Virus record (IMG/VR): IMGVR_UViG_3300003323_000429
Coordinates: 1-27,876 of that record
Length of the DNA stretch: 27,876 nucleotides
Reading direction: 5' to 3' (one strand)
Source: a virus
Part shown: positions 2,433 through 11,200 of the stretch, one piece after another
Position numbering within the stretch: position 1 is the first letter of the stretch
Layout: every line of letters starts with the position of its first letter
Program-made: the position numbers and the translations under genes
Notes under the pieces: generated by a model
Seen by the model: the letters and a program-made list of their open reading frames with translations, nothing else
The model's database searches: none
Told to the model about the DNA's origin: nothing

Positions 2433-2464
2433 CCGGCATCTCACGGCCATACACGGAGGTGGGC

Positions 2465-2659
2465 ATGGAAGCCCTGCTGGACAAGGACGCGGTCGCCTCG
2501 ATCCTGGGCGTCGAACCGCGAACGCTCGACAACTGGGCCACGCTGAAGCAGGGCCCCACCTACGTAAAGGTCGGCGGGAAGCGGATGTACGACCCGGCCG
2601 ACATCCGGGAATGGGTCGAGGCCCGCAAGGTGCGGCACGCCGTCAAGGGGGATCGGTGA
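2465..2659 (+). CDS. small helix-turn-helix DNA-binding protein (excisionase/AlpA/MerR-like)
   Basis: Sixty-four residues. LLDKDAVASILGVEPRTLDNW is the helix-turn-helix, followed by a wing (GPTYVKVGGKRMYDPADIREWVEARK) with the characteristic K/R-x-x-Y-x-x-x-D-I-x-x-W tail of HTH_17/excisionase-type proteins. Such proteins act as excisionases, small repressors or replication accessory factors. The ATG at 2465 has GGAGG five bases upstream, better placed than the GTG at 2459. Its TGA overlaps the GTG of the RepA-like ATPase, so the two are coupled and may work together at the origin. Family is confident; role is inferred. Confidence 0.8.
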   Translation: MEALLDKDAVASILGVEPRTLDNWATLKQGPTYVKVGGKRMYDPADIREWVEARKVRHAVKGDR

Positions 2660-4179
2660 CACCGAGCATCCAGCAGCCAGCGTTCGACTCGTTCGAGCTG
2701 CTGGATGCCCTCCCCGAGGAGGTGCGCTACCTCGCCGTCCAGCTCCTGGGGGAGGAGGCGCAGCGGGAGTACCGCGAGCACGGGGAGCAACGGGACAAAG
2801 AGGCCGAGGAAGCCCGGACCCTCAGCGTCCTGGAAGCCAACATCAAACGCCAGCAGAAGGCGTTCGAGAATGTCCGGCGCGAGCGGGAAGAGGCCCTGGC
2901 CGTCGGCACGCTGTCGGCCGAGGCGGAGGTCTTCCACGAACTGCACCTCAAACCGAAGCTGACCGAGGCCCACGACTTCCAGCCGAAGATCAAAACGCCG
3001 GTCGTCCAGAACCTGTTCAACAAGAACTCTCTCTGCTGGGTGGTCGGATCGTCGGGGACGTTCAAGTCGTTCGTGACGGCCGACCTGGCGTTTCGGTACG
3101 GGGCCGAGGACATGGACTACCACGGCCGGAAGATGACGCACGGGAGGAGCCTGATCATCGTCGCCGAGGGGGCGGAAGGGTACGCGCACCGGAAGACCGC
3201 CTGGGAGCGTGAGCACGACAAGACCGTCAAGGACGTCGTCATCTACCCGGGCGCCCTCCAGCTCGCCTCGATCGAAAAGGAGATGGCCGCCCTCATCCAC
3301 CACCTTCGCGAGGAGGACGCCGCCGGTCGCCCGTACGGCCTGATCATGGTCGACACTCAGGCGATGTGCACCGTCGGCGTGGACGAGAACAGCTCCGAGA
3401 TGAACCAGGTGATCAACGTCCTGCACCGGATCCGGGAGACCTCCGGCGCGTGCGTCGTAGTCGTCCACCACTTCGGCAAGGACAAGCGGGCCGGGATGCG
3501 GGGCAGCTCGATGCTGTATGCCGCCGCCGACACCGTGCTGGTGCTGAAGCGGGCCGACGACGCCATGGACGTCACGCTGTCGACCGCCCAGGCCGATGAG
3601 GGCAAGCAGAAGGAGGGGATCAACGAAAAGGACTTCCTGACCCTGGAGCTGAAAAGCCACGTCGTTGGTGAGGACTACTTCGGGGACCCCGTCACCTCGC
3701 TCGTGCCGGTGCCGGGCGCCACGGGGAGCCACGACACGCACGATGCCCCCGCCGAGGACGCCGAACCCATCCCCGCCCTCTCGCCACGCCAGATGTACTA
3801 CCTCCAGGAGCTGTCCGCGTACCAGGAAGACGGAGTCAGCGCGTCCGACTTCGCCAAGGACATGGACCGGGAGGAGAGCCGTGAACCGGCCGGAGGACGG
3901 GTTACGCGGCAGGCGGCCAGGAAGGTCTGGGTGCAGGAGCTGAAGCCCAAGGGACTGGTCGAGCTGGTGCCGAAGCAGACCTCGAAATGGAAGGTCACCG
4001 CACGCGGTGCAGCGGCCATCATGAGGGCCCTGAAGGACGCCCAGGAGACCGGCGAGAAGTGGGTTGAGAGGGCCCAGAATCACAGGGTTCGGGGCAGGGT
4101 TCGCGAACCCTACGGGGAGACGATTCCCGAACCCGAGCGAACCCTAAGCGAACCCTACTCTGACCAGGGCGAACCCTAA
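2656..4179 (+). CDS. RepA-like AAA (AAA_25/RecA-fold) ATPase, probable replicative helicase/initiator
   Basis: 507 aa. Residues about 31-82 are a charged coiled coil. The RecA-like core has Walker A GSSGTFKS (131-138), an EGAEG segment (171-175), a Walker B-like strand LIMVDTQ (229-235), HHFGKD (271-276) and RGSSMLYAAADTV (282-294). That order is typical of plasmid RepA hexameric helicases and phage AAA_25 proteins. Residues about 385-470 look like a winged-helix tail, and the last 30 residues are repetitive because they are written over the GAACCC repeats. GTG at 2656 overlaps the HTH gene stop. It probably unwinds the adjacent repeat-containing origin. Fold is confident; the initiator role is inferred. 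Confidence 0.85.
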   Translation: MTPSIQQPAFDSFELLDALPEEVRYLAVQLLGEEAQREYREHGEQRDKEAEEARTLSVLEANIKRQQKAFENVRREREEALAVGTLSAEAEVFHELHLKPKLTEAHDFQPKIKTPVVQNLFNKNSLCWVVGSSGTFKSFVTADLAFRYGAEDMDYHGRKMTHGRSLIIVAEGAEGYAHRKTAWEREHDKTVKDVVIYPGALQLASIEKEMAALIHHLREEDAAGRPYGLIMVDTQAMCTVGVDENSSEMNQVINVLHRIRETSGACVVVVHHFGKDKRAGMRGSSMLYAAADTVLVLKRADDAMDVTLSTAQADEGKQKEGINEKDFLTLELKSHVVGEDYFGDPVTSLVPVPGATGSHDTHDAPAEDAEPIPALSPRQMYYLQELSAYQEDGVSASDFAKDMDREESREPAGGRVTRQAARKVWVQELKPKGLVELVPKQTSKWKVTARGAAAIMRALKDAQETGEKWVERAQNHRVRGRVREPYGETIPEPERTLSEPYSDQGEP

Positions 4180-4298
4180 GCGAACCCGAACCGAACCCTT
4201 TTCCCCGAACCCTGAACCCTGGGGTGGGCTGTGACTTAGGAACAGCCCCCAGTAGGGTTCACCCGGAATCTGAGGTGTAAATGAACATGATCGAACCC
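4085..4298. repeat. GAACCC iteron-like array, candidate replication origin
   Basis: GAACCC occurs in direct orientation at 4105, 4129, 4139, 4150, 4171, 4182, 4193, 4207, 4214 and 4293, and inverted (GGGTTC) at 4085, 4097 and 4255. Spacing from 4129 to 4193 is 10, 11, 21, 11 and 11 bases, close to whole helical turns. Several copies extend to GCGAACCCTA. Two copies meet as the perfect palindrome AGGGTTCGCGAACCCT (4096-4111). The array starts inside the 3' end of the RepA-like gene and continues through the gap into the next gene. Iterons beside a RepA gene are a classic origin arrangement; function is inferred. Confidence 0.7.
4226..4248. other. perfect hairpin within the origin candidate
   Basis: GGGCTGT (4226-4232) and ACAGCCC (4242-4248) form a 7-bp perfect stem with a 9-base loop. 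It lies between the last tightly spaced GAACCC copies and the inverted copy at 4255, 47 bases after the RepA-like stop. It may be a structural part of the origin or a weak terminator separating the ATPase gene from the next one. Confidence 0.5.
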
Positions 4299-4850
4299 TG
4301 CCCCGGATGTGGGCGGATGGTGCTGGTCGGGAAGATCGCCAACCTGGTCGTGAAATGCGATCCAACGCCCCTCACCGACGTGGGCGACATCGTCCGGCTG
4401 CTGACGTCGCCCAACCCCCCGAGTCTCTGGATGGTCGAACGGAACCAGCAGGGCCAGCCGTCCGGGCTCAGGGGTGCACGACCGGGTGAGCCCGGACCGG
4501 TCCGGGAGCACCGCTGCACGCGCGTCTCCGGCGACGGACCGCTCCCCCGGGTACTCGGAGACCCGATGCCCCCAAAAGGCCGGGAGACGGGCGTACAGCC
4601 AAGCAGAGCGGAGCCCAGCGAGGCTCAGCGGTTCCTTGCGGACCTGTCGACCCCGTTCTCGGCTGCACCGGCGGCACCCTCTTCTGCCCGGTATGCGGGG
4701 ACCCGCCTTACTGACGCAGGCGAGGGGCCGGTGTGCGACGGGTGCTCACGCCCGATGGCCGACGGCACGTACGCCTCGATCGAGGTCGGGGATCTCGTCG
4801 TCTGGGCCCAGCACGTAGAGCGTTGCCCCACGAGCGACGTCGGGGGCTGA
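4281..4850 (+). CDS. two-module zinc-binding hypothetical protein, 189 aa
   Basis: The N-terminal module has CPGC (7-10) and Cys26. The C-terminal module has CDGC (152-155), His178 and Cys182. They are joined by about 90 residues of low-complexity Pro/Gly/Arg/Ser sequence (for example RGARPGEPGPVREHR), so two small zinc knuckles on a flexible linker are likely. The ATG at 4281 follows GAGGTG. One GAACCC copy lies inside the codons at 4293, so the gene begins within the candidate origin. It ends 12 bases before a strong hairpin. I do not recognise a family; nucleic-acid or protein binding near replication is a guess. Confidence 0.65.
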   Translation: MNMIEPCPGCGRMVLVGKIANLVVKCDPTPLTDVGDIVRLLTSPNPPSLWMVERNQQGQPSGLRGARPGEPGPVREHRCTRVSGDGPLPRVLGDPMPPKGRETGVQPSRAEPSEAQRFLADLSTPFSAAPAAPSSARYAGTRLTDAGEGPVCDGCSRPMADGTYASIEVGDLVVWAQHVERCPTSDVGG

Positions 4851-7057: not shown

Positions 7058-7668
7058 CAGATCCTCGCCCCCCGCGTGCCGACCCCGGCCAGACTGTTCC
7101 GCCATGCCACCCACGTCACCGCTTGGACGGCAGAGGGCAGGTGACCCACCCGGGCACCAGCCTCCCGGTAGCAGTCGGCGAGCAGCCTGTACCGGCCGTG
7201 AGCGCCGAGCCCCCGGTTCCAGTCGCCCAGCGGGATGCCGACGGCTATGTCGTAGGCGTGGCGGTCGACGCACACGGCGTCCTCGTCGTCCGGGTTGAGG
7301 ATGCAGCGGTAGAACTGACCGGTCTTGCGCCGCATGGGAAGGACGTCGGCGGGGTCGATGCCAGCCAGGATCTTGTTCGCCTTGCTGGTCGAATCTTCCG
7401 TGTGGCGGGTTGCCCGTCCGGCCTCGAAGGCGTCGCACGCAAGCTCGACGTTCAGCCACCAGGTTGTCTGGGGGGAGAGAGCGGCCAGGAGACCGGCACC
7501 GGTCCGGACGTCCCCGTCGGCCAGCATCCCGGCCGTCCGGTGAGCCTGCTCGTACCAATGCGCACCCTGCTCATACTCGTCGTCGGTCGCCAGGGACCAC
7601 ACCGAAACGATGTTGCGGACGTAGTACTCGCGAGCCTCGCCGTCCGCCTTGATCGGGATCATCTCCAC
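7057..7668 (-). CDS. conserved phage protein with HhH-glycosylase-like motif pattern
   Basis: 203 aa, first gene of a ten-gene leftward operon directly behind the promoter-like motif at 7689-7715. Segments include LLAALSPQTTWWLNVELACD, a conserved-looking RRKTGQFY with Lys115, and VCVDRHAYDIAVG with Asp135. A Lys followed about 20 residues later by V-D-x-H is reminiscent of HhH-GPD DNA glycosylases, and the protein is largely helical. A base-excision or anti-restriction role is possible, but the HhH hairpin itself is not clear. Three starts are possible: GTG 7671, GTG 7668, ATG 7662. The second has the best spacing to AGGAAGG. Confidence 0.7.
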   Translation of the reverse strand: MEMIPIKADGEAREYYVRNIVSVWSLATDDEYEQGAHWYEQAHRTAGMLADGDVRTGAGLLAALSPQTTWWLNVELACDAFEAGRATRHTEDSTSKANKILAGIDPADVLPMRRKTGQFYRCILNPDDEDAVCVDRHAYDIAVGIPLGDWNRGLGAHGRYRLLADCYREAGARVGHLPSAVQAVTWVAWRNSLAGVGTRGARI

Positions 7669-8650: not shown

Positions 8651-8755
8651 CCATTCCACCTGCAAACCTCTTTTCTGTTGAAGGGGGACAGTGGGGGAGT
8701 TACGTCCGGGGACCGCCCCTTGTCCACCCTCGCGGTTACGGCGTTCGGAAAAGCA

Positions 8756-10825: not shown

Positions 10826-10852
10826 GTATTGCCTCTAGGTATAGAGTACCCC
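10826..10852 (-). promoter_or_regulatory. promoter/operator region for the leftward four-gene group
   Basis: On the complement, GGCAATACC ends near 10826 and resembles the ATAC half of the shared motif, but GGGG replaces GTTT. An inverted repeat CTCTA...TAGAG (10833-10846) overlaps it and contains TATACC, echoing the GTTTA/TAAAC repeat at 2393. It is a diverged member of the same family or a separate operator. Confidence 0.4.
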
Positions 10853-10861
10853 GGGGGAGGG

Positions 10862-11100
10862 GGGATGTACACCCCCTTTGCACATATTTCCATTAGCAAA
10901 TCCCGGTACCCCCTATGCCCCGTGTGCCCCTGTGCATGGGGGTATGCGGTGCCATGGGTGCATATGGGTGTGCTATGTGGGTGTGGGTGTAGGTGGGTAG
11001 GTATAGGTGGGGGTGTGTGCATGTGGGTGGGTATGCGTTCATTGCAATGCAATGTGTGCATGTGGGTGGGTATGGGGGGTATGCCCTTTGCATTCCCTAT
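10862..11100 (+). other. G/T-rich non-coding tract upstream of terminase, candidate packaging or regulatory site
   Basis: Part of the 437-base gene-free interval 10793-11229. The plus strand is dominated by GTGGG, GGTGGG, TATGGGG and GTGTGC words, quite unlike the rest of the window. Several GGG runs between about 10938 and 11074 could form a G-quadruplex, although loops are uneven. TTTGCA/TTGCAA words recur at the edges (near 10879, 11042, 11086 and 11110). No frame on either strand has a ribosome site and natural composition. Its place right before the small terminase is where pac or cos sites and late promoters are commonly found. Confidence 0.55.
11014..11074. repeat. 22-bp perfect direct repeat in the G/T-rich tract
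   Basis: TGTGTGCATGTGGGTGGG followed by TATG occurs at 11014-11035 and again at 11053-11074, a 39-base period. The 17-base spacer contains the palindromic ATTGCAAT/TTGCAA element. Perfect duplication with a separate palindrome between suggests binding sites, for example for the small terminase subunit. Confidence 0.75.
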
Positions 11101-11200
11101 GTCCGGGTTTGCAGTTTGCTGGGTGCTTTGCTTCCGCAAATGCGCCGGGGGCCTGCGGACGGTCCGATTTCTACCGAATGGCTCGAAAGTAAAAGTAATA

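Follow-up and report, generated by a model that had tools for sequence, protein, structure and literature searches.

Genes and repeats at the locus

The DNA analysed here (the window) is a stretch of 27,876 nucleotides of the IMG/VR virus record IMGVR_UViG_3300003323_000429. It belongs to a Dagobah-like Streptomyces phage: the terminase is 84%, the portal protein 68% and the capsid-gene match 70% identical to their counterparts in Dagobah, and the gene order is largely common to the two. At the locus under study, a small HTH_17 gene is directly followed by the gene of a RepA-like ATPase, the 3' end of which runs into a dense array of GAACCC hexamers, a hairpin, an AT-rich stretch and the start of the next ORF (Table 1).

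Table 1. Features at the RepA-like locus, in window coordinates
Feature	Position	Strand	Basis or remark
HTH_17 (MerR/excisionase-like) small protein gene, directly upstream of the ATPase gene	2459..2659	+	Pfam HTH_17 E=4e-8
RepA-like ATPase gene, 522 aa from first ATG	2611..4179	+	AAA_25 + C-terminal winged helix
AAA_25 (RecA-fold, RepA-type) ATPase domain, residues 110-292	2938..3486	+	Pfam E=2e-22
C-terminal winged helix-turn-helix, residues 385-491, proposed iteron binder	3763..4083	+	AlphaFold2
Two inverted iterons, 12 bases apart	4085..4102 (sites 4085, 4097)	-	Site listing
Head-to-head palindrome AGGGTTCGCGAACCCT, junction of inverted and direct iterons	4096..4111	.
Direct iterons GAACCC	4105, 4129, 4139, 4150, 4171, 4182, 4193, 4207, 4214 (span 4105..4219)	+	Site listing
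Degenerate site CTGACC	4160-4165	+	Within direct run 4105..4219
Hairpin with inverted iteron pair at base	4213..4261	.	z -3.5, -5.7, -3.7
Third inverted iteron	4255	-	Site listing
AT-rich stretch, candidate unwinding element	4266..4296	.	AT 19/30, joint window maximum
Next ORF, downstream neighbour in the window, L002 and Dagobah	4281..4850	+
Outer iteron, far side of AT stretch, inside start of next ORF	4293..4298	+	Counterparts L002 7548, Dagobah L001 4297

The sole Pfam match of the RepA-like protein is to AAA_25, with none to the DUF927 or D5/Primase_Cterm helicase families, and its PHROGs matches, to DNA polymerase/primase and helicase-primase families, lie over the ATPase region. We found no primase domain in the 522-aa protein and no sequence relative of it in the PDB; its plasmid relatives have the ATPase part alone in common with it. 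The full-length AlphaFold model was poor. The AlphaFold2 model of residues 385-491 (pLDDT 82) has three helices, a beta wing and a long helix, and its nearest solved folds are MarR/MepR (E ~1e-3, probability 1.0), with AspA and TubR among the weaker matches (ranks 32 and 50, E ~0.01-0.02). Among viral models the closest (E=2e-7) is that of a protein of 511 residues, the same length as the Dagobah one.

The initial annotation had reported ten direct and three inverted copies of GAACCC along with a perfect palindrome, and all of these were recovered at the same positions, amounting to 13 copies in 215 bases (4085-4298). By comparison, the maximum was 4 copies in 300 third-order Markov simulations of the window, and among unrelated hexamers of the window the densest has 7. 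The helical phasing claimed for a run of six direct sites, with spacings near multiples of 10.5 bases, was likewise borne out: the sites average ~10.7 bases apart and are strongly phased (R = 0.987, 0/5000 random placements). Taken together by their GAACC core, all ten direct sites in the main block are only weakly phased (p ~0.03). TRF detects a tandem array of period 11 at 4128-4199, and the 21-base gap in the direct run is occupied by the conserved CTGACC site. The iterons are 6-8 bases long and recur about once per helical turn. The array had also been described as coded inside the C-terminus of the ATPase; this holds up to the stop codon, beyond which the array continues for ~120 bases, its last site falling within the next ORF.

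The base of the hairpin consists of nine identical base pairs, which are the inverted iterons; its upper stem is altered in sequence in the related contig L002 with the pairing kept, and Dagobah has an analogous hairpin, again with inverted sites at its base. The hairpin has no T run, and a sigma-70 type scan gave no promoter-like or terminator-like site there, which is weak evidence in Streptomyces. Searches for Rfam families, tRNAs, sigma-70 promoters and T-tailed terminators found none, and the only DnaA-like box in the whole window (1 mismatch) lies far off at 8720.

No 30-mer in the window exceeds the one beginning at 4266 in AT content, which is equalled once, at 11167. The corresponding maximum is found at 7518-7521 only in the L002 locus, and at 38751, tied with 43755, in the Dagobah genome; in all three, it lies just 3' of the hairpin. 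This stretch is the natural candidate for an unwinding element. Of the 13 iterons, 12 lie to one side of it and one to the other; it also extends over the region where translation of the next gene starts, and such regions tend to be AT-rich anyway. The cumulative GC skew, which the initial annotation had proposed as a check, gives a shallow profile that decides little; in Dagobah its minimum lies ~1.8 kb from the array but is confounded by gene orientation.

Conservation of the array in related phages

Comparable loci were found in Dagobah and in the contigs L002 and L003, the latter two having the same sequence in the array region. The L002 homologue of the RepA-like protein is 72-74% identical to that of the window, and the Dagobah protein is 29% identical, or 38% in the winged-helix part. 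Relative to Dagobah, the replication ATPase ranks with the least conserved genes, far below the terminase, portal and capsid match. When further relatives of the winged helix or the ATPase were sought, the matches were only L002/L003 and one weak bacterial MAG sequence, and with Dagobah as the query no further relatives were found.

In L002 the stop codon comes 14 residues earlier, having been created inside the array, and the array runs on nearly unaltered in non-coding DNA, where the same stretch is coding in the window. In Dagobah the protein ends in an unrelated tail of EPVGEPVGEPV... repeats, and the motif at the same place is GAACCGGT in lieu of GAACCC; the layout is nonetheless retained in the same order, with an inverted pair, a head-to-head junction (L001 4064-/4070+), a phased direct run, a hairpin, an AT stretch and an outer site. 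The inverted pair is 12 bases apart in L002 and Dagobah as in the window, the best period of the main-block sites is 11.0 in all three, and spacer sites of the CTGACC type number one in the window and two in Dagobah. Between the window and L002, synonymous changes affect 3 of 19 codons in the array-coding tail, whereas the winged-helix part has them in 35 of 80 (Fisher p ~0.04, computed with segment limits close to these and on small numbers).

Because the L002 array outlasts the earlier stop codon and the Dagobah layout persists with another motif, the selection discernible in these comparisons is on the DNA of the array and not on the protein tail. The proposal of the initial annotation that protein tail and origin evolve together is not supported, given the earlier stop in L002 and the unrelated tail in Dagobah. 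The same annotation had named relatives that keep the tail and lose the copies as evidence against an origin; the comparisons show the opposite, with the array kept and the tail lost.

Iteron clusters at AAA_25 helicase genes of other phages

Among phages with an AAA_25-type helicase, identified by tblastn, we scanned 20 for hexamer clusters. In six of the 20, 8 or more copies are clustered immediately 3' of the helicase gene, with the motif CTACAAA in CRP-823 and CRP-811, GTATAAA in CRP-831 and CRP-821, CCTCGTCC in MinS1 and TATCGGCA in P8625. Phage 1.210.O has a weaker cluster of 6 copies one gene further on, and KimJongPhill has CAGAACGCTTA repeats (L225 538-752) in a 750-base intergenic stretch upstream of its primase/helicase operon, another candidate origin. 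The remaining sampled AAA_25 phages, which are most of the relatives, have no 3'-end cluster above the shuffled level. In MinS1, an annotated small ORF (UIU47017) overlies the CCTCGTCC array (L224 4040-4204, record 307-471) and may not be a real gene.

The four CRP (Roseobacter) phages would offer a natural swap experiment, with one ATPase, two putative winged helices and two apparently matching iteron sets. Their ATPase domains are 99-100% identical, while the C-terminal region, called winged-helix-like from its sequence alone, is 98-99% identical within groups (CRP-823/811 98%, CRP-831/821 99%) and 67-68% between them. Despite the change of motif, ten sites are at positions within 1 base of each other. 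The N-terminal part is common to CRP-823 and CRP-821 (97%), and the cassette has therefore moved against that background. The joint change of winged helix and array may in part be linkage, as the two adjoin; however, all the sites carry the new motif in place, which goes beyond linkage and favours what is also the simplest reading, that the C-terminal domain would read the iteron sites. In CRP-823 the most AT-rich 40-mer falls inside the array. The C-termini of CRP-823, MinS1 and KimJongPhill did not match the winged helix of the window significantly when their profiles were compared.

These cases lead us to suggest, tentatively and as something somewhat short of probable, that AAA_25 phages carry an exchangeable origin-specificity cassette comprised of a C-terminal winged helix and its cognate iterons directly downstream, the helicase being kept and the cassette swapped or rewritten as a unit. 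The iterons would then have been changed in place (CTACAAA/GTATAAA; GAACCC/GAACCGGT), possibly evading replicon incompatibility or origin-targeting nucleases.

Base rate of hexamer arrays in viral contigs

Where three GAACCC copies occur at 11-base spacing in a viral contig, the array lies at genes of replication initiation, O-like, DnaD-like and primase families. Two types of control arrays, one of the reversed hexamer CCCAAG with the spacing kept at 11 bases and the other of GAACCC spaced by 14 bases, are also found at initiator, DnaD-like, primase or primosomal genes (with tallies counted per family and not as unions per locus). We accordingly rejected the notion of GAACCC as a special common phage iteron: it recurs in unrelated initiator genes, and the controls mark such genes too. 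Since control hexamer arrays reach the same kinds of genes, neither phasing nor the letters of the motif are diagnostic; at the same time, compact phage repeat arrays often mark replication genes, and the prior for an origin is therefore raised.

Four contigs (L009, L012, L017 and L020), from phages unrelated to the window, have GAACCC arrays inside an initiator gene of the phrog_3171 family, an arrangement like that of lambda O. Initiators of the phrog_3171 type also occur in L033, L041, L043, L064, L066, L075 and L078. The viral contig L013 has a dense array of doubled GAACCCGAACCC units at 1890-2047.

A probable replication origin and the alternatives

We consider it highly likely that 4085-4298 is the replication origin of this Dagobah-like Streptomyces phage, with the RepA-like protein acting as both initiator and helicase and its winged helix binding GAACCC. 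The suggestion of the initial annotation, an iteron origin candidate next to the RepA-like ATPase gene, thus gains support from the array, its layout and its conservation, as far as these can be read from sequence. These features, together with the domain, the AT maximum and the recurrence in other phages, are seen in the sequence; binding, ring loading, unwinding and use as an origin are what we infer. The C-terminal winged helix, most likely the iteron binder by analogy with the CRP phages, would bind the GAACCC iterons, which in the core run recur at roughly every helical turn. Once bound, the molecules would assemble the AAA_25 ATPase ring on the DNA; past the hairpin, the AT-rich stretch would open; and a host or phage primase and polymerase would start there. 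The hairpin of inverted sites may serve as a cruciform or a primase start, or may merely be the 3' end of the repA transcript. Since the window is an incomplete genome, there may be another origin.

An origin with a different binder is unlikely, though it is the alternative to be weighed first: the upstream HTH_17 or a host protein would bind the iterons and the RepA-like ATPase would be recruited as the helicase, as with RepC and RepA of RSF1010. The window, L002 and Dagobah all keep the HTH_17 gene upstream of the ATPase gene; however, the ATPase has a winged helix of its own, and the CRP phages combine a constant ATPase with a winged helix and a motif that change jointly. Of the two binders that the initial annotation had left open, these two points make the RepA-like protein the probable one and its HTH partner the less likely.

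Less probable still is an operator array, with no origin, at which the winged-helix or HTH protein represses or terminates its own operon or the following gene. The MarR-like fold is typical of repressors, the hairpin follows the repA stop codon and the last site of the array (4293) falls within the beginning of the next gene. Against this, 13 sites in 215 bases at a 3' end would be unusual for an operator, the sigma-70 type scan gave neither promoter-like nor terminator-like sites (weak evidence in Streptomyces), and replication is indicated both by the AT maximum and by a binding domain fused to a RepA-type ATPase. We attach very little probability to a parS-like centromere array that serves segregation and is recognised by a winged helix of the TubR/AspA type. 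The fold search did give AspA and TubR, as weaker matches, but this winged helix forms one protein with an AAA_25 replication ATPase, no partner of the ParA/TubZ type was identified adjoining it, and an AT-rich unwinding candidate would be superfluous. Finally, a low-complexity coding tail of Glu-Pro repeats with no DNA function, suggested by the EP-rich protein that part of the array encodes and by the EPVGEPV repeats of the Dagobah tail, is refuted by the sequence comparison, as the period of 11 is out of codon phase and the array, some of whose sites are inverted, passes both stop codons and persists where the tail has gone.

Many phage RepA-like helicases are annotated merely as helicase or primase, and their origins have rarely been mapped. 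If the origin proposed here is true, the origins of a set of such phages could be read from the 3' end of the helicase gene, a change of phage origin specificity would be directly testable and candidate Streptomyces replicons would be gained.

Comparison with known initiator-origin systems

The locus has the general make-up of an iteron origin, with direct repeats near an initiator gene and an AT-rich region, and the SaPI/PICI-type placement of the array directly 3' of, and across, the end of an initiator helicase gene. In SaPI Rep the C-terminal domain recognises iterons directly downstream of its own gene, and the same downstream-repeat recognition is seen in vitro for SCCmec Cch2 (PMC7581432). 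The likeness to SaPI/PICI Rep-ori and Cch2 includes a self-loading initiator helicase and a C-terminal DNA-binding domain (both predicted here), iterons 3' of the gene and an AT-rich stretch (PMC6092414, PMC7581432). However, the SaPI/Cch2 helicases are of the DUF927 or D5/Primase_Cterm families, whereas that of the window is a RepA-type AAA_25 ATPase, which places it outside the SaPI Rep families. Moreover, SaPI and SCCmec are a satellite or cassette and the window is of the tailed-phage genome type; and PICI origins have iteron sets flanking the AT-rich region on both sides (PMC6092414), whereas the window has one clear iteron on the far side. By analogy, the window may be seen as working like SaPI Rep/ori, with another helicase family.

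The RSF1010 RepA/RepC/RepB' system has in common with the window a RepA-type RecA-fold helicase (here the AAA_25 domain) and, on the reading proposed here, iteron recognition and short stem-loop priming sites (PMC4234260). In RSF1010, a separate RepC binds the iterons, whereas recognition in the window is apparently fused to the helicase; no RepB' homologue was identified in the window, an incomplete genome, and Dagobah encodes a primase/polymerase elsewhere in its genome. The alpha protein of phage P4 joins in one protein, as is proposed here for the RepA-like protein, a helicase and a winged helix that binds origin repeats (PMC4234260, citing Yeo 2002); it differs in its Toprim-type primase domain, of which none was found in the window protein. 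In pRN1, the origin, a stem-loop, lies immediately 3' of the gene for the winged-helix replication protein ORF904, and the same has been proposed for phage BIP-1 (PMC4234260). Position and conserved stem-loop are thus shared with the window, but pRN1 relies on an SF3 helicase, and its stem-loop is 100 bases long and unaccompanied by iterons (PMC4234260).

The initiators of the lambda O type and of actinophages resemble the window in that iterons overlap the initiator coding region, with GAACCC at 11-base spacing in L012, L017 and L020. They differ in belonging to other PHROG families and having the array in mid-gene; the RepA-like protein has no O-like or DnaD-like match in PHROGs, and no sequence relation of these initiators to it was found. 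The mycobacteriophages Miko and Jeeves also have a protein named RepA and a cis ori in or beside repA (PMC7157519); unlike that of the window, their RepA proteins are plasmid-type initiators of 320-350 aa with an N-terminal HTH, related to the pMSC262-family RepA (PMC7157519). The open-access passages of the Dagobah paper (PMC7650747) and of the CRP-822-type phage paper (PMC12629253) contain no description of an origin or iterons.

Other repeats in the window

Two further repeat-bearing stretches were observed in the window. A 21-base tandem repeat with 2.1 copies is present near the left end, at 171-215. GT-rich repeats (GTGGGTG/ATGTGGGTGGGTATG) at 10840-11080 lie upstream of the terminase region, and within them TRF detects a repeat of period 30 at 10977-11034; near this stretch there is a strong positive GC skew, and the AT maximum for 25-mers is at 10877.
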